A stretch of DNA of 38,036 bases from Pseudomonadota bacterium. GTDB taxonomy: Bacteria > Pseudomonadota > Gammaproteobacteria > Burkholderiales > Burkholderiaceae_C. The stretch spans positions 1 through 38,036 of the forward strand of contig JAUNUR010000026.1 of assembly GCA_030538085.1 (NCBI GenBank), given 5' to 3'. Of the stretch, positions 1 through 27,701 are shown one piece after another. Each line of letters opens with the position of its first letter. The stretch's first letter is position 1. Position numbers and translations under genes: made by a program. Under the pieces are notes generated by a model. That model ran no database searches and had not been told where the DNA came from. It saw only the letters and a program-made list of their open reading frames with translations.

Positions 1-76
1 TGACAAATGACAAATGACAAATGCGCCATTTGTCATTGAAGCGCAGCGAAGTCATTCGTCATCTTGAAAGCCGATG
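1..76 (+). repeat. Dispersed repeat family T, copy 1
   Basis: The window opens with three tandem TGACAAA units, then GCGCCATTTGTCATTGAAG, then CGCAGCGAAGTCATTCGTCAT and TTGAAAGCC. The same order recurs at 9044-9142 on this strand and at 5711-5788 on the other. TGACAAATG and CATTTGTCA can pair, so the unit can fold. The copy may begin before the window. It lies just past the 3' end of plsY. Confidence 0.8.
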
Positions 77-5606: not shown

Positions 5607-5710
5607 GCGATCAGGGGTTGAGGCTGGAAGAAAAACGCCGCCCGAGTGTAGATGCGCCACCGAGCCACATCAACACGTACCGATGCGTCTTCCGTGGGAA
5701 TGGTCTTATG

Positions 5711-5788
5711 CGCATTGGCTTTCAAAATGACGAATGACGAATGACTTCGCTGCGCTTCAATGACAAATGGCGCATTCGTCATTTGTGA
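5711..5788 (-). repeat. Dispersed repeat family T, copy 2
   Basis: Read on the minus strand, this copy gives ACAAATGACGAATGCGCCAT, then TTGTCATTGAAGCGCAGCGA, AGTCATTCGTCATTCGTCAT and TTGAAAGCCAATGCGCAT. It is the same unit as at 1-76 and 9044-9142. It fills most of the gap between the tas start and the hydrolase start, where promoters for both would be expected. Confidence 0.8.
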
Positions 5789-5862
5789 GGCGGCGCCAGC
5801 TGCGGTACCCCCTGTCCCCAGGCGGACGGCCTGTCCGCGCGCCTCCTGAATAATGCCGCCCC

Positions 5863-8527: not shown

Positions 8528-8593
8528 GATGATTTTTCCTCCTGCGTTGATGGAGCGGCCTGTCATGACCCACGCCAAATCAAACTTACTACC

Positions 8594-8805
8594 TATTGAT
8601 ATTTTCAAAAATCACGACAGCGCGGGCTATCAGAAAAATTCCCTCACATTCCCTCGTCATTGCGGCGAAGGCCGCAATCCATGGGGCGTCACCTTGACGC
8701 GGCGTTCACCTGCGGACACCGTGTGGATTGCGGCCTTCGCCGCAATGACAGGATGAGGTGAAGGCATTACGTATGCTTGTCCTGAATTACGAAACTCTCA
8801 ATAGT
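8594..8805 (-). repeat. Composite element A, copy 1 (REP-pair core)
   Basis: A 212-bp element whose ends are imperfect inverted repeats (CTATTGATATTTTC at one end, GAAACTCTCAATAG at the other). Inside lie the block ATCACGACAGCGCGGGCTAT and two inverted copies of the palindrome TTGCGGCGAAGGCCGCAA. It is about 85-90% identical by eye to 24578-24788 in the opposite orientation. Its ends are shared with 21884-22003, which has a different core. It has no open frame and lies upstream of lldP. Confidence 0.9.
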
Positions 8806-9043: not shown

Positions 9044-9142
9044 CAAATGACCGAGGCTGGCGCCGCATGACCAATGACGAACGCGCCATTTGTCATTGAA
9101 GCGCAGCGAAGTCATTTGTCATTTGTCATATTGAAAGCCAAT
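9044..9142 (+). repeat. Dispersed repeat family T, copy 3
   Basis: GCGCCATTTGTCATTGAAGC then GCAGCGAAGTCATTTGTCAT and TTGAAAGCCAATGC repeat the unit seen at 1-76. The left part is longer and partly diverged, containing GATGACAAATGACCGAGG. It ends 6 bp from the fadD stop, as copy 1 ends just past the plsY stop. Confidence 0.8.
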
Positions 9143-9147
9143 GCACA

Positions 9148-10872
<1,725 letters not shown>

Positions 10873-13828: not shown

Positions 13829-14009
13829 GTGAAAGTGCTTGATTATCAAGAAGTCTCAGATACGGCTTGTGGGAGCGGCCTTGGCCGCGATGGCAGCGTT
13901 TCGCCCTGAGCCAAGGCTTATCGCGGGCAAGCCCGCTCCCACAAAAAACGATGGAAAACCGCGTGCATGCATGCACGCTCTGAAACTCGTTGATAAGCAA
14001 GTGAAAGTG
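13829..14009. mobile_element. MITE-like insertion with 9-bp target duplication
   Basis: GTGAAAGTG occurs at 13829-13837 and again at 14001-14009. In the undisturbed copy of element E (reverse strand near 18320) it occurs once. The inserted 163 bp have imperfect inverted ends: TTGATTATCAAGAAGTCTCA at the left, and on the reverse strand of the right end TTGCTTATCAACGAGTTTCA. The interior holds a pair of inverted REP units, TGTGGGAGCGGCCTTGGCCG and CGGGCAAGCCCGCTCCCACA. No transposase is encoded; a full-length parent elsewhere would be needed to move it. Confidence 0.88.
13868..13943. repeat. REP doublet (REPIN-like) inside the MITE
   Basis: Two inverted units, each beginning TGTGGGAGCGG and carrying a small internal palindrome, are separated by about 30 bases and can fold into one long hairpin. 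The unit matches the half-unit at 2056-2077. By recall, such doublets are typical of Pseudomonas, where RAYT transposases act on them. Confidence 0.75.
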
Positions 14010-14198
14010 ATGGATTCGGCCCGAGGGCAAGACGCACACCGCAGCGATACCGGGTGTATCGCGAGGATGAGCAACGCCGCCATCGGGTAGCCTTGCAACG
14101 GATTCAGCGGCTCGACCGATGGATTCACGATATTTCCCCTCCCGCCATGCAGCCGCAGGCGCGAGCAACCATTGAATTGAAAGCAAACAGGAGTTTGG

Positions 14199-18094: not shown

Positions 18095-18426
18095 CGCGTT
18101 CAAGCGGATCACCACGCGGGTGCAATGCGATGACGAAATGACCTCGCTGCGCTTCGATGATGGCGGCCGTGCCGCCATGACACCATGGAGCGCCTAGTAC
18201 ACCGACACGGAGATTTCGAAACGTGAAAGCGCGCCTTCGCCCCGATGGCGGCGTTGCACATCCTCGCGATACCACCCGGTATCGCTGCGGTGTGCGCCTT
18301 GCCCTCGGGCCGAATCCATCACTTTCACCATGTTCCGAAATCTCCGTGTCGGCGTACTAGCGCTTCGCGCACGGTCATCGTCATTTCGTCATTGACGCCG
18401 CGAAGCGGCGAAGTCATTCCGTCATG
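18095..18426. repeat. Repeat family C, copy split by element E
   Basis: The outer parts, 18095-18193 (with GCAATGCGATGACGAAATGA) and 18361-18426 (with GCGGCGAAGTCATTCCGTCA), match 12228-12412. Element E lies between them. The two halves realign across the insertion with the copy after prfB, showing that E entered a pre-existing repeat. Confidence 0.75.
18194..18360. mobile_element. Element E: 167-bp element with long terminal inverted repeats
   Basis: The left end CTAGTACACCGACACGGAGA and the right end, read on the other strand, CTAGTACGCCGACACGGAGA continue into near-identical sequence for about 30 bases, with roughly two differences. The middle holds the hairpin GCGATACCACCCGGTATCGC. A second, truncated copy in the other orientation lies at 13797-14095. 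No protein is encoded, so it is a MITE-like passenger. Candidate target duplications at the edges are short and not decisive (AGCGC is near both). Confidence 0.85.
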
Positions 18427-21417: not shown

Positions 21418-21890
21418 ACACCTACCTCGTTCTCAAATGGATTCACATCCTCAGCAGCGTGCTGATGGTGGGCACCGGCTTCGGCTCGGCGTTCTACATG
21501 TTCTTCGCCAACCGCAGTGGCAGCGTGGCGGCGCAGGCCGTGGTCAGCCGGCTGGTGGTGCGCGCCGACACCTGGTTCACCACGCCGGCCATCATCGTGC
21601 AGCCCGTCACCGGCGTGTGGATGGCGCACCTGGCCGGCTGGCCGTTGACCACGCCGTGGCTGCTGGCGTCGATTGGCTTGTACCTGCTGGCCGGTGCCTG
21701 CTGGCTGCCGGTGGTGTGGCTGCAAATCCGCATGGCCCGGCTGGCGCGGGCCGCCAGCACCCACGGCACGCCGCTGCCGCCCGCCTATGCCCGGCTGCAG
21801 CGCACGTGGGAATGGCTGGGTTATCCGGCCTTCGTCGCCATGCTGGTGGTGTACTGGTTGATGGTGAACAAGCCAGCGCTGGGCTATTGA
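21414..21890 (+). CDS. DUF2269 family membrane protein
   Basis: A 158-residue protein with four probable membrane helices. The start LVLKWIHILSSVLMVGTGFG and the phrase ITGVWMA-like PVTGVWMAHLAGWPL fit DUF2269, whose histidine in KWIHI is often conserved. Function is unknown. It is translationally coupled to the DoxX-like gene (ATGA). Its stop codon lies within the left terminal repeat of composite element A at 21884, so the element supplies or overlaps the end of the gene; a slightly longer ancestral protein is possible. Confidence 0.88.
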   Translation: MNTYLVLKWIHILSSVLMVGTGFGSAFYMFFANRSGSVAAQAVVSRLVVRADTWFTTPAIIVQPVTGVWMAHLAGWPLTTPWLLASIGLYLLAGACWLPVVWLQIRMARLARAASTHGTPLPPAYARLQRTWEWLGYPAFVAMLVVYWLMVNKPALGY

Positions 21891-22003
21891 AAATTTCGTA
21901 ATTCATGACACGCCGCTTGCCCTCACCCCAACCCTCTCCCAGAGGGAGAGGGAGATTTCTTTCTGATAGCCCGCGCTGTCGTGATTTTTGAAAATATCAA
22001 TAG
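21884..22003 (+). repeat. Composite element A, copy 2 (short, different core)
   Basis: This 120-bp copy has the same ends as 24578-24788: CTATTGAAAATTTCGTAATT at the left, and CTGATAGCCCGCGCTGTCGT then GAAAATATCAATAG at the right. The middle is different: ACCCCAACCCTCTCCCAGAG followed by GGAGAGGG, the palindromic repeat also found inside the helicase gene. It begins inside the last codons of the DUF2269 gene and ends 9 bp from the HD-kinase stop. Confidence 0.88.
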
Positions 22004-22012
22004 GCGTGAATC

Positions 22013-23149
22013 TCACGCCACCTCGTATTCCACCGCATGCGCCTCCCACGGCAAGGGCACTTCCCAGCGGTGCAGCATGCGCATCAGGTGCTTGTTGCTC
22101 AGCGTCGTGTCGCGCTTGTCATTGCGCGCAAGGACGGTGACTTCGGGCGCTTCCAGATACACCAGCCGCACACGGGCGTGGTAGGCGTACAGCAAATCCA
22201 GCGTGCGGCTGCGCATGTCGTGGGACAGGTGCGTGGCGTTCCAGACAAAGCGCGCATGGCCGCGCAGCAGGGCCTTGGCCTTGTCGATGGCGTGGTGCGC
22301 GGCCTTGCCGTCGTTCTCGCCATGTTTCAGCCCCAGCTCGGCCTTGGCGTCGTCGAACGACACCGCGGGCCAATCCTTGGCGTGCTGGCGCACCCAGGTG
22401 TCCTTGCCCGAGGCGGGCAGGCCGCTCAGCACGATGACTTCGCTGCCCGCCAGCGGGTGCTGGGCAAATTGCGGGTCGATCGCCTTGCCGCGCGCGTACA
22501 GCAGGCGCGTGTGCGCGTCGGCGGCGGGCCACGGCGCGTTCCAGCAGCCTTGCTCGCGCGCCAGTTCCTCGAACAGCTCGATGTCTGCCAGATGGCTGGC
22601 CTGATCGGCGCAGACGCGGCCGCGCATGTCGGCGCGCGCCACGCAGGCCAGCTCCGACACGTCCAGCTCCCACGACAGGCGGCGCACGATGCGTTCGGGC
22701 GCCTCGCCGCGCCGGCTGTCGAACGCGAAAAACGGCAGCTGATGCACGGCCACGATGCGGCACACCGCCTCGCGCTGCGCGAACGGCATGCCCGCGCGCC
22801 ACAGCAGGATGCGGGCATCGACCGCGCCGCGCCGGGAGTGGCCGGGCTGGCCGATGGCGCCGGTGACGGGGTCGATCACCGTGGTGTCGGGCTTGGCGAT
22901 GTCGTGCAGCAGCGCGGCGGTGAACATCACCTCCTGGCGCGGGCGGGCGGCGCTTTGCCAGACGGGATCCGACAGCAGCGCGTCCAGCACCATCCGGGTG
23001 TGGATGCCGACGTTGCCCTCGGCGTGGTGCCGCGGGTCCTGGGGCGTGGTCTCCAGCCGGTGCAGCGCGGGCAGCAGCTCGCACAGCAGCGGCCAGTCGT
23101 GGCCCGCCCCCGGCGCGGGGATCAGGGTTTGCAATGTTTTCCAGAGCAT
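22013..23149 (-). CDS. HD-Pnk: HD phosphoesterase fused to polynucleotide kinase
   Basis: A 378-residue two-domain RNA/DNA end-healing protein. The N-terminal HD domain carries H50, HD at 82-83 in LLHDIAKP, H104 and H136; in the studied relative from Runella this domain removes 2',3'-cyclic phosphate or phosphate ends. The C-terminal domain (about 235-378) has the P-loop GLPASGKDTW at 243-252, a following SFDD, and a lid-like ARNDKRD near 341-347, as in T4-type 5'-OH polynucleotide kinase. Together these would make 3'-OH and 5'-phosphate ends. AAGGAG precedes the ATG. It starts 18 bp after the stop of the RNA ligase, so healing and sealing enzymes are co-transcribed. Target RNA is not known. 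Confidence 0.9.
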   Translation of the reverse strand: MLWKTLQTLIPAPGAGHDWPLLCELLPALHRLETTPQDPRHHAEGNVGIHTRMVLDALLSDPVWQSAARPRQEVMFTAALLHDIAKPDTTVIDPVTGAIGQPGHSRRGAVDARILLWRAGMPFAQREAVCRIVAVHQLPFFAFDSRRGEAPERIVRRLSWELDVSELACVARADMRGRVCADQASHLADIELFEELAREQGCWNAPWPAADAHTRLLYARGKAIDPQFAQHPLAGSEVIVLSGLPASGKDTWVRQHAKDWPAVSFDDAKAELGLKHGENDGKAAHHAIDKAKALLRGHARFVWNATHLSHDMRSRTLDLLYAYHARVRLVYLEAPEVTVLARNDKRDTTLSNKHLMRMLHRWEVPLPWEAHAVEYEVA

Positions 23150-23167
23150 GATGCGACTCCTTCCGGT

Positions 23168-24073
23168 TCAGGGCATTTGCGCGGCGAACGCCACGGGGTC
23201 GAAGGCGCGCAGCGCGTCCAGCGACGTCAGGGTCCGCAGGCCCAGCGGCTCCCAGCCCAGCGTGGGCAGCGGCGCGTACAGATCGACCCCTTCGGCCAGC
23301 ATGTTGGGCAGCAGGGGCCGCGCCAGGTGGTGCGAGCCGGAATCCAGAATGGTCTGCGTGAAGCCGGGGCGCACCCACTTGTAGCGGGCTTCGACAAAGT
23401 CATCGTTCTCCACCTTCAGGTACAGCCCTTCGGACTCGTCCTGCGCGTTGGTCTGCTTCCAGGTCAGCGCCAGCGGCAAGCCCGCGCGCGCCACCTGCTG
23501 CTCGAAGTGCTGGCGCCACGCTCGGCTCTTGGCGAGCGAGCGGTACACCAGCTTTTTCAGCAGCTTCAGATCGGTCGGCATCGGCCCGGCGTACAGCACC
23601 GGCACCGACACCAGCGGCAGGCCGCGCAGCAGCGCTTGGCGGCGCGGTGTCGACAGGAACCGGCCCGTGTGCCGATCCAGCAGGTCGAACTCCAGCAAGA
23701 AGTGCGGCAGCCGGTCGTACCAGACCGAATGCTTGGCGTACATGGCCTCGCCATACAGCACCCAGCGGTCTTCCAGCCGCGCCAGCAAGGCATCGGCATG
23801 CGCCTGCGCCCAGGGCTTGAGCCAGTTGAACTGGCGCTCGCTCCCGCCGCCGACCAGATAGTGGCCGCGCGATTGCAGCAGCAATTGGCCGTCCGCGCTG
23901 AACGACAGGCCGCAGTTGGCCCCGTCCAGCTTTTCCTCGATCACGACATGCTTGCCCGCCAGCGCGGCCAGCGGCGTCTGGTCGCGGCCATCGTCGCCCG
24001 CTTGCAGGCGCGAGCCTTGCAGATGCGCCGTGCGCGGATACCTGGCCAGTTCCAGGGATTGAAGGGGTTTCAT
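23168..24073 (-). CDS. ATP-dependent RNA ligase family protein
   Basis: A 301-residue nucleotidyltransferase that would join 3'-OH and 5'-phosphate RNA ends. Motif I is EEKLDGAN with the adenylated lysine at K48. Motif III is LYGEAMY near 107-112, IIIa is FLLEFDLLD near 125-133, motif IV is EGLYLKVE at 215-222, and motif V is ARYKWVRP at 229-236. The C-terminal part beyond 240 is short, nearer to Rnl2-like or minimal RNA ligases than to DNA ligases. AGGAG lies seven bases before the ATG. A 13-bp stem sits directly upstream of that site. It is first in a two-gene unit with HD-Pnk. Whether its substrate is RNA or nicked duplex cannot be told from sequence. Confidence 0.9.
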   Translation of the reverse strand: MKPLQSLELARYPRTAHLQGSRLQAGDDGRDQTPLAALAGKHVVIEEKLDGANCGLSFSADGQLLLQSRGHYLVGGGSERQFNWLKPWAQAHADALLARLEDRWVLYGEAMYAKHSVWYDRLPHFLLEFDLLDRHTGRFLSTPRRQALLRGLPLVSVPVLYAGPMPTDLKLLKKLVYRSLAKSRAWRQHFEQQVARAGLPLALTWKQTNAQDESEGLYLKVENDDFVEARYKWVRPGFTQTILDSGSHHLARPLLPNMLAEGVDLYAPLPTLGWEPLGLRTLTSLDALRAFDPVAFAAQMP

Positions 24074-24088
24074 TTCCGTCTCCTAGCA

Positions 24089-24182
24089 GCACCGTGCCCG
24101 CTGCGTTGGAGAGGCAGGTCAGGCGGTACCGCGGTTCATTTGGGAAGAACCGACGACGGAAAACGTGATGCGGGCACGGTGC
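24089..24182 (-). ncRNA. Candidate structured leader RNA of the RNA ligase operon
   Basis: On the minus strand, GCACCGTGCCCGC at 24182-24170 pairs perfectly with GCGGGCACGGTGC at 24101-24089, a 13-bp GC-rich stem closing 68 nt. Inside is a second hairpin with arms CGGTTC and GAACCG (24152-24147 and 24137-24132) and the palindrome GCGGTACCGC. The closing stem ends 4 nt before the ligase AGGAG site, so it is likely within the mRNA leader. It may control translation, be a processing or damage-sensing site, or be an independent RNA. No known RNA family is recognised. Confidence 0.5.
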
Positions 24183-24450
24183 GTGCCCCAGGATTGACCG
24201 GGCAAATAGGAAAACCCGGCGCTCAGGTGTCTGGCGTCAAATCACGAACCGGGTCATCCTTCAGCGGCACCATGGCGTACCGGTGGCAGGGTGAGGGTTC
24301 GCGTCTGATCGAAAGACGCGGTCGTCGGTCAGCAGGTGACGAGTGCGCAGGACACGGTGAACTCCAAACTGCCTTGAAGACAGGGTCCAAGGTAGCGCAG
24401 GTGAAAGAAGGCGCGCATCTTAATCCAATTCCAGATCAAAGCTGCAATCT
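24183..24450 (-). other. Unexplained non-coding stretch upstream of the RNA repair operon
   Basis: About 270 bases without a plausible gene and unlike any repeat in the window. On the minus strand there is a perfect 7-bp hairpin at 24320-24300, arms CGCGTCT and AGACGCG, whose 7-nt loop TTCGATC fits the tRNA T-loop pattern. Other short inverted pairs are CCGGG/CCCGG near 24198-24219 and CACC/GGTG. The stretch may hold a promoter and a structured RNA; a complete tRNA fold was not found. Confidence 0.4.
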
Positions 24451-24535
24451 CGTCATTGCGGCGAAGGCCGCAATCCAAACGGCGTGTGTAGGGAAACATG
24501 GATCCCGGCCTTCGCCGGGATGACGGTGATTAACG
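24451..24535. repeat. REP pair R, copy 2
   Basis: CGTCATTGCGGCGAAGGCCG at the left and CGGCCTTCGCCGGGATGACG at the right, with GGGAAACATGGATC between. It is nearly identical to 18463-18546. The two arms here differ (TTGCGG against TCCCGG), so the hairpin is imperfect. Confidence 0.85.
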
Positions 24536-24577
24536 CCTTGGAGTGGAGTTTGAAGGCGAAACATCGCCCAAATGGAG

Positions 24578-24788
24578 TTATTGAAAGTTTCGTAATTCAG
24601 GACAAGCCTATGTAATGCCTTCACCTCATCCCGTCATTGCGGCGAAGGCCGCAATCCACACGGTGTCCGCGGGTCAACACCGTGTCAAGGGACGTTCCAT
24701 GGATTGCGGCCTTCGCCGCAATGACGAGGGAATGTGAGGGGATTTTTCTGATAGCCCGCGCTGTCGTGATGATTGAAACTCTCCATAG
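24578..24788 (+). repeat. Composite element A, copy 3 (REP-pair core)
   Basis: A 211-bp element with ends TTATTGAAAGTTTCGTAATT and GAAACTCTCCATAG, the block CTGATAGCCCGCGCTGTCGT, and a core of two inverted TTGCGGCGAAGGCCGCAA units. It is the inverted near-copy of 8594-8805 and is in the same orientation as the short copy at 21884-22003, so the pair brackets the RNA repair genes as direct repeats. Confidence 0.9.
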
Positions 24789-24893
24789 TTGCACCAGCCG
24801 CCGCATGGCAAAGGCCATTGCGGTGTGTGTGACGCAGATGCTTCAGTTTGAGTGGGTTCAATCGACACTGATTCAACGTCTATCCGCAAGCGT

Positions 24894-27701
24894 TCAATGC
24901 GCCTGCTCCCAGTTCGGCCCCACGCCCACCTCGGCCAGCAGCGGTACCTTCAGCTCGGCCACGGCGGCCATCAGCTTCGGTACCTCGGCCTTCACCCAGT
25001 CGATCTCGGCCTGGGGCACCTCGAACACCAGTTCGTCATGCACCTGCATGATCATGCGCGTGGCACGCCGTTCTTTTTCAAGTACGCCTTGCACCGCCAC
25101 CATGGCCTTCTTGATCAGGTCGGCCGCCGTGCCCTGCATGGGCGCGTTGATGGCGGCGCGCTCGGCAGCGGAGCGGCGCGGGCCGTTGGGGCTGTTGATC
25201 TCGGGCAGGATCAGGCGGCGGCCGAACACGGTCTCGACATAGCCCTGCGCCTTGGCCGCCTGCTTGGTCTCGTCCATGTAGCGCTTCACGCCGGGATAGC
25301 GATCGAAATAGCGCTCGATATAGTTGCGCGCCGCCGTGTTGTCGATGCCGAGGTTGCGCGCCAGCCCAAAGCTGCTCATGCCGTAAATCAGGCCGAAGTT
25401 GATGACCTTGGCGTAGCGGCGCTGCTCGCTGCTGACCTGATCCGGCGCGACACCGAACACTTCGCTCGCCGTGGCGCGGTGCACGTCCAGCCCTTCGGTG
25501 AAGGCCTTCAGCAGTGCCTCGTCATCCGACAGGTGCGCCATGATGCGCAGCTCGATCTGGCTGTAGTCGGCGCTGACGACCACGTGCCCCGGCGGCGCGA
25601 TGAAGGCCTCGCGGATGCGGCGGCCTTCCGCCGTGCGGATGGGGATGTTCTGCAGGTTCGGATCGTTGCTGGCCAGCCGCCCCGTCACCGCCACCGCCTG
25701 CGCGTAATGCGTGTGCACGCGCCCGGTGGCGGGGTTCACCATCTGCGGCAGCTTGTCGGTGTAGGTGCTCTTCAGCTTGGCAAGACCGCGATGCTCCAGG
25801 ATGCGCGCGGGCAGCGGGTAGTCCTCGGCCAGCTTTTCCAGCACCTCCTCGTCGGTGCTGGGCTTGCCGGTGGCGGTTTTCTTGACCACGGGCAGGCCGA
25901 GCTTGTCGAAGAAGATTTCGCCAATCTGCTTAGGCGACCCCAAGTTGAAGGGCTGGCCCGCCAGTTCGTGCGCCTCCTGCTCCAGTTGCAAAATGCGCTG
26001 GCCCAGCTCGTGGCTTTGCTGGCGCAGCAGTTCGCTGTCGATCAGCACGCCATGGCGCTCGATCTGGAACAACACCTCGCTGGTGGCGATTTCCAGCTCA
26101 TAGATTTGCAGCAGCCCGGCGTTCTGCTGCAGGCGCGGCCACAGCGTGAGATGCACGTCCAGCGTCTGGTCGGCATCCTCGGCACCGTAGTGCACGGCCT
26201 GCTCGAACGGCGCCTGCGCGAACGGGATCTGATGCGCGCCCTTGCCGCACAGGTCTTCATAGCTGGTGCCGCTACGGCCCAGGTGCCGGTCGGCCAAGCT
26301 CGCCAGGCCGTGCGGGCGGTGCACTTCGAGCACGTAGCTTTGCAGCATGGTGTCGTGCGCGTAGCCCGCCACCTCGATGCCGTGGTTGGCGAACACGTGG
26401 CGGTCGTACTTGATGTGCTGGCCCAGCTTCTTCTTGGCCGGGTCTTCCAGCCAGGGCTTCAGGCGCGCCAGCGCCTCATCCAGCGGCAGTTGCGCTGGCG
26501 CATCGGGGCCATCGTGGGCCAGCGGGATGTAGGCCGCTTCGCCCGGCTGCACACTGAACGAGATGCCGACGATGCGCGCCTGCATCTCGTCGAGCGAGGT
26601 GGTTTCTGTGTCCAGCGCCGTCAGCTCCGCCGCGTCGATCTTCGCCAGCCAGCGGTCGAAGGCGGGCCAGTCAAGCACCGTCTCGTAGCGCACGTCACCG
26701 CCCACCTGCGACGCCGTCGGTGGATCGGCAAACAGGTCGTCGGTGGGCGTGGCGGCTGCGGGCTTGCGGGCCGGCTTGGCGGCTGCGCCGCCCGTCAAGG
26801 CCTTGGCCAGCGACTTGAAGCCGAACTGCTCATAAAAACCCGCTAGATCGCCCGTTTGTTGTTCGCGTACAGCTATCGAATCAAGAGCTGGAAGCCCCTC
26901 CACGTGGCCATCCAGATCGCAATCGGTGCGTATCCGCAGCAGCTGGCGCCCCATCGGCAGCCAGTCGAGCGAGTTGCGCAGGTTCTCGCCCGCCGCGCCC
27001 TTGATCTGGTCTGCGGCGGCCAGGATGCCATCCAGCGAGCCATGCTCGTTCAGCCATTTGGCGGCGGTCTTGGGGCCGACCTTGTCGACGCCCGGCACGT
27101 TGTCGATGGCGTCGCCCAGCAGCACCTGGTAGTCGAGCATCTGGTCGGGCCGCACGCCGAACTCGGCCTGCACGCCGGCCTCGTCGCGGCGCTTGCCGCT
27201 CATGGTGTCGATGATGCTGATGTGCGGCGTCACCAGCTGCGCCAGATCCTTGTCGCCGCTGGAGATGACCACCTCCACCCCCTGCCGCGCGGCGGCGTAC
27301 GCCAGCGTGCCGATCACGTCGTCGGCCTCCACGCCGGGCACCGCCAGCACCGTCCAGCCCAGCAGGCGCACCACGGCGTGAATCGGCTCGATCTGGCTGC
27401 GCAGGCCGTCGGGCATGGGCGAGCGGTTGGCCTTGTAGTCGGGGTACAGGTCGTCGCGGAAGGTCTTGCCGGGCGCGTCGAACACGCAGGCGGCGTACTG
27501 TGCGTCGGGGTATTCCTTGCGCAGCGCGCCCAGCATGTTGATCATGCCGCGGATGGCGCCGGTGGGCTGGCTGGCTGGGTCGGCCGGGTCCGCGCGCAGG
27601 TCGGGCATGGCGTGGTAGGCGCGGTACAGGTAGCTGGAGCCGTCGACCAGCAGCAGGCGTGGCGCGGGCGTGGCTTCGGGCGCGGAAGGGGTGTCTGTCA
27701 T
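24894..27701 (-). CDS. polA: DNA polymerase I
   Basis: PolA fills gaps and removes RNA primers during repair and lagging-strand synthesis. The 935-residue product contains all three domains: the N-terminal 5'-3' exonuclease (LLLVDGSSYLYRAYHA at about 16-31, SSGDKDLAQLV, LLGDAIDNVPGVDKVGPKTA), the 3'-5' proofreading domain (LTALDTETTSLDEM, with D and E metal ligands), and the polymerase domain (DYSQIELRIMAHLSDD, FGLIYGMSSFGLARNLG, and MQVHDELVFEVP near the C terminus). The ATG at 27701 is preferred to 27716; both are possible. The stretch coding residues about 272-290 carries AT-rich codons and matches dispersed repeat G. It is divergent from the DUF2782-like and homoserine kinase genes, an order I recall from Pseudomonas. 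Confidence 0.97.
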   Translation of the reverse strand: MTDTPSAPEATPAPRLLLVDGSSYLYRAYHAMPDLRADPADPASQPTGAIRGMINMLGALRKEYPDAQYAACVFDAPGKTFRDDLYPDYKANRSPMPDGLRSQIEPIHAVVRLLGWTVLAVPGVEADDVIGTLAYAAARQGVEVVISSGDKDLAQLVTPHISIIDTMSGKRRDEAGVQAEFGVRPDQMLDYQVLLGDAIDNVPGVDKVGPKTAAKWLNEHGSLDGILAAADQIKGAAGENLRNSLDWLPMGRQLLRIRTDCDLDGHVEGLPALDSIAVREQQTGDLAGFYEQFGFKSLAKALTGGAAAKPARKPAAATPTDDLFADPPTASQVGGDVRYETVLDWPAFDRWLAKIDAAELTALDTETTSLDEMQARIVGISFSVQPGEAAYIPLAHDGPDAPAQLPLDEALARLKPWLEDPAKKKLGQHIKYDRHVFANHGIEVAGYAHDTMLQSYVLEVHRPHGLASLADRHLGRSGTSYEDLCGKGAHQIPFAQAPFEQAVHYGAEDADQTLDVHLTLWPRLQQNAGLLQIYELEIATSEVLFQIERHGVLIDSELLRQQSHELGQRILQLEQEAHELAGQPFNLGSPKQIGEIFFDKLGLPVVKKTATGKPSTDEEVLEKLAEDYPLPARILEHRGLAKLKSTYTDKLPQMVNPATGRVHTHYAQAVAVTGRLASNDPNLQNIPIRTAEGRRIREAFIAPPGHVVVSADYSQIELRIMAHLSDDEALLKAFTEGLDVHRATASEVFGVAPDQVSSEQRRYAKVINFGLIYGMSSFGLARNLGIDNTAARNYIERYFDRYPGVKRYMDETKQAAKAQGYVETVFGRRLILPEINSPNGPRRSAAERAAINAPMQGTAADLIKKAMVAVQGVLEKERRATRMIMQVHDELVFEVPQAEIDWVKAEVPKLMAAVAELKVPLLAEVGVGPNWEQAH
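26834..26888 (-). repeat. Repeat G-like segment inside polA
   Basis: The minus strand reads GCTCTTGATTCGATAGCTGT, ACGCGAACAACAAACGGGCG and ATCTAGCGGGTTTTT. It aligns with copy 1 at 20946-21001 at the same length, sharing ATAGCTG-nnn-GCG and GGGTTTTT. It codes for about 18 residues between the two nuclease domains and uses codons (ATA, GTA, CTA) that are rare in the rest of the gene. Confidence 0.5.

Follow-up and report, generated by a model that had tools for sequence, protein, structure and literature searches.

A predicted RNA repair operon headed by a conserved short leader ORF, a candidate translational attenuator sensing stalled translation

The RNA ligase and HD-kinase pair

The window, that is, the whole 38,036-nt stretch of contig JAUNUR010000026.1 that was analysed, carries on its reverse strand a compact pair of genes for an RNA ligase and an HD-kinase. 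The ligase gene is preceded by a short leader open reading frame (ORF), and dispersed repeats lie around the pair.

23168..24073, reverse strand: ATP-dependent RNA ligase (Rnl) of 301 aa, with K48 as nucleotidyl-lysine by motif (EEKLDGAN), PF09414 at 1.6e-33
22013..23149, reverse strand: fusion of an HD phosphoesterase and a P-loop 5'-OH kinase (HD-Pnk type), 378 aa

The first-pass annotation had named an RNA ligase with K48 in EEKLDGAN, and the ORF, the K-x-D-G motif and PF09414 agree with this. Among the ligase homologues, 33 of 34 have K-x-D-G-x-N by pattern, and the 34th (L040) also has K-x-D-G. The second gene had been described as an HD-phosphoesterase/5'-OH kinase fusion. This also holds, as Pfam places HD (PF01966) at residues 70-142 (1e-4) and then AAA_33 (PF13671) at 238-365 (1.1e-17) in the one chain. 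The HD motif and the P-loop GxPxxGK are present in all 31 HD-kinase sequences, the window's copy counted. Comparison with the bacter_Pnkp profile gave a weak match in the kinase domain (29.2 bits, far under the cut-off of 750). Among PDB sequences, the HD-kinase matched, in its kinase part only, three chains named Metallophosphoesterase (4jst and its kin; best E 0.005), which we take to be Clostridium Pnkp. Pnkp carries a metallophosphoesterase in place of the HD domain. No solved relative of the ligase was found in PDB sequences at E 0.1. No further gene separates the ligase from the HD-kinase, and the stretch bounded by the two flanking copies of repeat A contains no regulator gene.

These motifs and domains support well the prediction that the pair is an RNA end-healing and sealing unit, in line with the heal-and-seal role proposed for it before. 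A phage source of the ligase was considered and rejected; the phage matches are distant (19 records, all <60% identity) and none was confirmed in viral contigs.

The pair is patchy in its distribution. The ligase is present in 2 of 60 genomes and in 20 of 399 genomes of the family, the window's own genome being counted in both. In another genome of the same genus (G014), the pair lies at a different place, and polA is near the DUF2269 gene without the pair there. Thus, the gain or loss of the pair that had been suggested is supported: the pair moves or gets lost.

A short leader ORF upstream of the ligase

The leader ahead of the ligase was overlooked in the earlier annotation, and we regard it as the more unusual feature of the locus.

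24417..24422, reverse strand: likely -10 hexamer TAAGAT, with GC-rich GCGCGCC after it (by eye)
24362..24365, reverse strand: Shine-Dalgarno GGAG of the leader ORF
24329..24355, reverse strand: leader ORF, GTG start, 8 codons, (M)SCALVTC-stop

Of 25 distinct loci in the ligase clade, 23 have a leader ORF of 7-9 codons; L022 (a near copy of L021) and L042 (identical to L013) were dropped from this 23-locus set. The two loci without it are L025 and L038, which are the sole non-bearers inside the 26-row clade of the ligase tree, on which the leader label takes three changes. When leader ORFs were called by a Shine-Dalgarno rule, 20 of 24 loci had one, the window included, as against 1.7 +/- 1.2 in shuffled sequences (maximum 6 in any of 200 sets); this count omits L038, a clade member lacking the ORF. 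The same rule gave 12 of 16 in representatives (1.3 in shuffles) and none in five distant ligase loci. The ORFs of L037, L049 and L057 were placed by eye because the rule missed all three. A short ORF with a Shine-Dalgarno sequence upstream of the regulated gene is the layout expected of an attenuator.

The peptide sequence is loose across the clade. Codon 3 or 4 is CGY or TGC in 22 of 23 leader ORFs. The leader is kept while the genomic position and the flanks of the operon vary. The leader ORF is apparently translated.

The -10 box was aligned by eye with TATGAT plus GCGCGCC in G014 and TATGAT plus CGCGCCC in Rhizobacter; automatic promoter scans of the window did not pick the TAAGAT box. 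A stringent-type promoter, in which a GC-rich stretch follows the -10 box, seems frequent among the relatives, 14 of 23 having boxes at p <= 0.05 against mononucleotide shuffles. Because the background is GC-rich, we make no claim of such a promoter.

Pairing between the leader and the ligase ribosome site

24321..24329, reverse strand: S2, ACCGACGAC, adjoining the stop codon of the leader ORF
24170..24182, reverse strand: arm 1 of a 13-bp stem that encloses S3 in the window (from sequence and folds)
24149..24157, reverse strand: S3, GTCGTCGGT, able to pair with S2 and near the ligase ribosome site
24089..24101, reverse strand: arm 2 of the 13-bp stem
24080..24084, reverse strand: Shine-Dalgarno AGGAG of the ligase gene

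In 22 of 23 loci, 0-3 nt separate the leader stop codon from the S2 motif, which was written after the sequences were seen. The exception in codon usage, L051, has neither the S2 motif nor a CGY/TGC codon. Pairing of S2 with S3 beats shuffled sequences singly (p <= 0.04) in 7 of 23 loci, and in the window p=0.037. In 20 hand-aligned loci (L049, L051 and L057 left out), 154 of 180 cells pair, a value equalled by 2 of 5000 permutations that ignore kinship. Two-sided changes occur at three positions: pairs 1 and 4 exchange A-U and G-C, and pair 3 has a single swap from C-G to G-C. The pairing is weak or broken in several clades.

We modelled the effect of ribosome position on the ligase site. Over the 23 loci, the mean cost of opening the site was 9.3, 9.3 and 9.4 kcal/mol with the P site at codons 1, 2 and 3, respectively, 11.9 kcal/mol with the stop codon in the A site and 11.4 kcal/mol without a ribosome. 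The difference between the stop and codon 2 averaged 2.56 kcal/mol, compared with 0.34 +/- 0.23 in shuffled sets (maximum 0.76 of 30 sets, whose shuffle seeds cannot be reproduced exactly). Taken locus by locus, 10 of 23 beat all 30 shuffles and the others do not, with L046 (-0.7) and L048 (-1.4) going the wrong way. The window's own leader fails this test (1.3 kcal; 23 of 30 shuffles equal or better) because the 13-bp stem dominates its fold. The result also depends on the ribosome footprint assumed; under an earlier setting, the difference exceeded +0.5 at 16 of 23 loci and fell below -0.5 at 2, and at L047 it was 5.5, compared with 0.7 under the later one. In L021 and L024, even the stalled state retains some weaker pairing at the ligase site, and a clean exchange is missing from several other single best folds.

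Searches for the leader elsewhere and for known RNA classes

A profile of the leader, R1, was built from 18 rows (L022, L023, L049, L051, L055 and L056 left out). It matches the window at 24317-24367 (E 1.1e-8), by construction, since the window's leader is one of its rows. Over 399 genomes, R1 gave 13 matches of at least 29 bits, every one at a ligase locus, and in 17 of the 20 genomes with the ligase it matches the leader. The separation is thin, the 13th ligase match scoring 29.2 bits and the best non-ligase match 28.5, and the strong matches are mostly the profile's own training rows or near copies; at E 0.01, 111 of 399 genomes match. Other genes under the same leader were sought at ten non-ligase R1 loci (L099, L103-L106, L108-L111 and L113, excluding L102, L112, L114, L115 and matches not assigned to a locus), and this idea was dropped, as these loci resemble gene starts or coding DNA.

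Two other types of leader were rejected. A tRNA-like leader RNA finds no backing, as ARAGORN finds no tRNA in the window and Rfam families are unmatched; Rfam 15 gave five weak matches up to E 5 in window positions 23900-25000, all below the gathering score and none in the leader. Transcription attenuation was set aside because no consistent intrinsic terminator lies between the leader ORF and the gene; a terminator scan of the window found a single weak match of 5 pairs, where 0.4 would be expected, and a similar script found matches in 2 of 23 leaders.

A proposed translational switch and its alternatives

In the his and trp leaders and in the erm and msrD attenuators, the position of a ribosome on a short ORF selects between folds, one of which hides a ribosome site. 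With moderate confidence, we propose that the operon studied here is a predicted RNA repair operon under a translational attenuator that senses stalled translation. The support computed for this consists of the conserved leader ORF, the two-sided changes in S2 and S3, the modelled clade-average effect of ribosome position and the location of the strongest R1 matches at this operon. In the proposed switch, which may work in the cell as follows, a ribosome that is done with the leader ORF would park at the stop codon and mask S2. This would let S3 fold over the ligase ribosome site and close it. An early stall at about codons 2-4, where Arg CGY or Cys TGC usually stands, would leave S2 exposed, so that it could pair with S3 and make the ligase site easier to open. 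Stalled translation, for example after the matching tRNA is cleaved, would in this way call up the RNA repair enzymes. The predicted HD domain would remove 2',3'-cyclic or 3' phosphates, the kinase would put a phosphate on 5'-OH ends, and the ligase would seal them.

A more specific form of this proposal is tentative: the leader might read the tRNA pool, such that a ribotoxin-cut Arg (CGY) or Cys (TGC) tRNA causes the stall and the ligase and HD-Pnk mend that same tRNA. If true, this would be a damage sensor made of mRNA and ribosome alone, with no need for a regulator protein such as RtcR.

The leader could instead be a generic attenuator of antibiotic or stress stalling like those of erm or msrD, with drug-bound ribosomes rather than damaged tRNA as the signal. 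The layout is alike, a short ORF and a hidden ribosome site, and some leader peptides contain R-x-R (MSRRTRSC), on which ketolide-bound ribosomes stall according to a passage of PMC8298421. Bacterial Rtc RNA repair is linked with ribosome-targeting drugs in part of PMC12606134. However, R-x-R occurs in a minority of the 23 leaders and is absent from the window's MSCALVTC, and the peptide is too poorly conserved for peptide-specific arrest, which makes this reading rather unlikely.

It is unlikely, too, that the leader is a structured regulatory RNA or a protein-binding site in which the short ORF is untranslated or irrelevant. Such a view would fit the S2:S3 pairing kept in part of the clade and the loose peptide, whose ORF start (YCC-YGC) is conserved as nucleotides, and the repair enzymes themselves could bind the leader. 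On the other hand, the Shine-Dalgarno sequence, the start and the in-frame stop are kept while the length is 7, 8 or 9 codons, the count of ORFs is far over that in shuffles, and none of 19 leader loci matched an Rfam family at the gathering score.

Comparison with known RNA repair and leader systems

To our knowledge, neither a trigger nor an RNA target has been established for this type of bacterial heal-and-seal repair. The conserved leader, if it couples the genes to ribosome stalling, would be a concrete candidate for the signal, and its codons would name candidate damaged tRNAs. It is also a marker that separates regulated from unregulated versions of the operon. Among the best literature matches, from a search outside which subscription papers mostly lay, none described a leader ORF that regulates an RNA ligase/HD-Pnk operon in bacteria.

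Characterised HD-Pnk enzymes have the domain order HD, then kinase, and a Runella HD-Pnk has reportedly been shown biochemically to heal ends. The protein encoded here resembles the HD-Pnk of Runella slithyformis and Deinococcus radiodurans (Shuman laboratory), with an N-terminal HD and a C-terminal P-loop kinase, a likeness of domain order only; its gene differs in being second in the operon, after a ligase and a conserved leader. The D. radiodurans HD-Pnk work is cited in a passage of PMC9146567. As in the Pnkp-Rnl-Hen1 complex described in part of PMC4411300, a healing enzyme and an RNA ligase form one unit, whereas the operon here has HD, no extra gene between the ligase and the HD-kinase, and a proposed regulation by a leader ORF. 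Expression of the RtcBA operon responds to broken tRNA, according to an excerpt of PMC7790460. There, the protein activator RtcR binds tRNA halves, whereas here a leader ORF and a predicted RNA switch would take that role. The leader also differs from those of his/trp, erm and msrD in the genes it would control, which are for RNA repair and not for amino-acid synthesis or drug resistance. It further differs in having no consistent intrinsic terminator, and Rfam 15 families do not match it.

Repeats around the pair

21884..22004, forward strand: dispersed repeat A, short copy, the start of which overlaps the DUF2269 stop codon
24424..24547, reverse strand: dispersed repeat B, whose ends are similar and inverted; it abuts the likely -10 box
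24578..24788, forward strand: dispersed repeat A, full copy

Two same-direction copies of A flank the pair, the left one ending about 9 bp from the kinase stop codon, as had been described. They align only over their two ends (78% and 86%) and differ in their middles. The right end of A has 158 matches in the 3.5 Mb genome (<=3 mismatches; the window's three included), 81 forward and 77 reverse, compared with none in a backward control, and there are at least 41 near-full-length copies genome-wide. With a density of about 1 per 22 kb, about 6% of copies are expected by our own arithmetic to have another in the same direction within 2.7 kb, so several such pairs are expected in the genome. Because A is so common, though far beyond chance as a repeat, its bracketing of the pair is unremarkable.

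The first-pass annotation had inferred gain or loss of the pair by recombination between the A copies and proposed looking for an empty locus with a single A between the DUF2269 gene and polA. This is not supported: in G014 the pair does not travel with two flanking A copies, its flanks holding direct repeats of <=31 nt at 70-90% identity and nothing resembling A. Nor was the single-A empty site seen, as neither A nor B occurs in the sequence covered around polA at 27 further polA loci from 26 genomes of the genus, several of which cover little or nothing beyond polA. Nothing ties the movement or loss of the pair to A, and the flanking copies are probably incidental. The two A copies share their direction, and the pair is patchy and differently placed in two genomes of one genus. 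Even so, it is very improbable that these copies recombine and bound a cassette that can move or be removed, given these results, the unlike middles and the abundance of A, and the ORFs scanned around the pair carry no transposase family.

Repeat B, which was absent from the earlier annotation, lies inside the stretch bracketed by A and matches at least 39 other places in the genome over 70 bp or more. Homology to the G014 leader ends at 24422, where B abuts the likely -10 box. A third copy of A lies at 8593-8803 of the same window.

RNA repair genes and surrounding repeats

The first-pass annotation placed an RNA ligase and an HD-kinase fusion between two same-direction copies of repeat A, a dispersed repeat family of this genome, and ORFs, Pfam matches and repeat coordinates bore this layout out:

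21884-22004: repeat A, left copy, outside the pair, same direction as the right copy
22013-23149, minus strand: HD-kinase fusion (Pfam HD, 1e-4; AAA_33, 1.1e-17)
23168-24073, minus strand: RNA ligase (Pfam RNA_ligase, 1.6e-33)
24424-24547: repeat B, a second dispersed family, with similar inverted ends, between the pair and the right A copy
24578-24788: repeat A, right copy, outside the pair, same direction as the left copy
8593-8803: repeat A, further copy in the window

The ligase is upstream of the HD-kinase with a gap of 18 bases, and the pair, judged by its sequence, adds a new example to an already described set of enzymes. The left A copy stops about 9 bases short of the kinase stop and reaches into the end of the DUF2269 gene; at its left end it overlaps the DUF2269 stop codon (21884-21890), and the element may supply the end of this gene.

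The repeats on either side of the pair are ordinary. Sites matching the right end of A number 158 across the 3.5 Mb genome (0 in the backward control), at least 41 copies are near full length, and the two bracketing copies are alike at their ends only. A third dispersed repeat family was observed at 5701-5806, 9050-9155 and 7-62 (both directions, 89-98%), as was a near-perfect inverted repeat pair about 4.2 kb apart (14001-14087 and 18241-18328; 98% over 56 bases, 97% over 32).

Comparison within the genus settles most of the question of the A bracket. The ligase was found in 2 of 60 genomes; in the family sample it is present in 20 of 399. Both counts include the own genome. In the same-genus genome G014, whose ligase is 84% identical to that of the window, the pair lies near 430 kb. 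Its polA is near 1,639 kb; DUF2269 follows about 1.3 kb further on, with another ORF intervening. Nothing like repeat A was found in the flanks of the G014 pair. An empty locus with a single A between the DUF2269 gene and polA had been proposed as a check; neither A nor B was found in the available sequence at 27 other polA loci of the genus (26 genomes), several of which have short or no sequence downstream of polA. Thus, gain or loss and relocation of the pair are supported by these genome comparisons, and A, which is common genome-wide and missing from the G014 flanks, is probably incidental to the pair.

At 24417-24440 (minus strand), repeat B is directly upstream of the likely -10 box of the repair operon, where homology with G014 stops (24422). 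From this position, B seems to have inserted into the promoter and taken the place of the native -35 region in the window, which may have weakened or changed the promoter.

A conserved leader upstream of the ligase

Homology between the window and G014 passes the ligase start and continues to 24422, so upstream regions of ligase homologues were collected from family, order and class samples, plasmids and genome contigs. The order sample gave ligase matches in 18 of 399 at E 1e-3, among them six close homologues as well as the own genome; the class sample (E 1e-50) gave 2 of 369, neither of them new. Rhizobacter sp. OV335 (L013) keeps pieces of the leader homology with shifted spacing.

The leaders, between promoter and ligase start, share a common order: promoter-like boxes (p ≤ 0.05 in 14 of 23), Shine-Dalgarno, an ORF of 7-9 codons with ATG or GTG start, stop, strand S2, variable bases, strand S3 and the ligase ribosome site. 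The S2 motif (CCGACGAC or ACGAC types) begins 0-3 bases past the stop codon in 22 of 23 leaders (L051 has the ORF and lacks the motif). About 65-235 variable bases separate it from S3 (GTCGTCGG type), which lies 34-85 bases upstream of the ligase start at the 20 loci where it could be placed. Two elements of the window leader are as follows:

24355-24329, minus strand: leader ORF, reading (M)SCALVTC
24089-24101 with 24170-24182: 13-bp stem enclosing S3

An automatic rule detects the leader ORF in 20 of 24 loci (1.7 in shuffles), and three placed by eye bring the number to 23. In the ligase clade, 23 of 25 distinct loci bear it, the others being L025 and L038, where the rule found none; applied to five distant loci (L014, L016, L036, L039, L040), the same rule came up empty. 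The leader-bearing label is clustered on the tree, with 3 changes.

R1, a profile of the ORF-S2 block built from 18 rows, was run over the 399 family genomes and gave 13 matches of at least 29 bits, each of them at a ligase locus and most of them training rows or close copies of these; the next best (28.5 bits) lies away from any ligase. It matches the leader in 17 of 20 ligase genomes, missing G128, G557 and G752. At E 0.01 it matches in 111 genomes, and the ten non-ligase loci inspected resemble ordinary gene starts or coding DNA.

Ribosome position and S2:S3 pairing

Pairing of S2 with S3 is proposed to open the ligase ribosome site. The modelled site-opening cost averages, over 23 leaders, 9.3, 9.3 and 9.4 kcal/mol when the P site holds codons 1, 2 and 3, respectively; the mean is 11.9 kcal/mol when the stop codon occupies the A site and 11.4 kcal/mol without a ribosome. 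When the stretch from leader ORF to ligase site was shuffled, the stop-minus-codon-2 difference was 0.34 ± 0.23, versus 2.56 for real leaders, and none of 30 sets reached the real value. Ten loci singly beat all their own shuffles. The window leader has a difference of 1.3 kcal/mol, equalled or bettered by 23 of 30 shuffles, because the 13-bp stem encloses S3; in L046 and L048 the difference has the wrong direction, and the assumed ribosome footprint alters the values of single loci. The case for the modelled switch therefore comes from the clade and extends to the window by homology only.

S2:S3 pairing is significant in 7 of 23 loci taken singly (window, p 0.037). Across 20 loci aligned by hand, pairing holds in 154 of 180 cells, a result that 2 of 5000 re-pairings equal, and pairs 1, 3 and 4 show two-sided changes. 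S3 can also fold into a hairpin that takes in the ligase ribosome site. The best folds of L054 give a clean exchange: S2:S3 is formed and the site unpaired with the ribosome at codon 2, and the site is buried with the ribosome at the stop or absent. In L021 and L024, S2:S3 displaces the S3-site helix and weaker pairing remains at the site. Clean exchange was not seen in the best folds of L013, L037, L047, L057, L012 and the window, and thus the case rests mostly on ensemble energies. In L043-L045, a nearby TGTCGGCG past the leader ORF is another possible partner of S2, a hint that this clade may have a third alternative helix.

Since no consistent terminator was found in the leaders, the leader is most likely a translational attenuator, in which an early stall in leader translation would open the repair operon. 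CGY or TGC stands at codon 3 or 4 in 22 of 23 leaders, and Arg and Cys account for 49 of 166 leader residues (related leaders unweighted). Together with site opening being easiest when a ribosome is held at codons 1-3, these codons suggest that the leader senses Arg or Cys tRNA supply. tRNA-Arg(ICG) is a target of colicin D, and some VapC toxins cleave tRNA-Cys. None of the papers listed in a literature search reports such leader control put to an RNA-repair purpose; the leader reads as a new version of an established mode of control whose use here is new as far as those papers show.

HD-kinase partners of the ligase

The HD-kinase adjoins the ligase in 22 of 22 close homologues (family and order samples, own genome and G014 excluded) and in P. 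aeruginosa plasmid pF051. Of five planctomycete loci from the genome contigs, L017 and L018 have an HD-kinase, and none was found in L014-L016. L038 (5971-8464), a Variovorax plasmid ligase inside the leader-bearing clade, is separated from its HD-kinase by an extra ORF. In L036 (98-1944), an HD-kinase 55% identical to that of the window has, 3 bases away, a very dissimilar ligase (26%), which looks like a swap of the sealing partner. Ligase and HD-kinase are near each other in L017 and L018, which were inspected for the motif only, and in L039, on a cyanobacterial plasmid; the pair may predate the leader.
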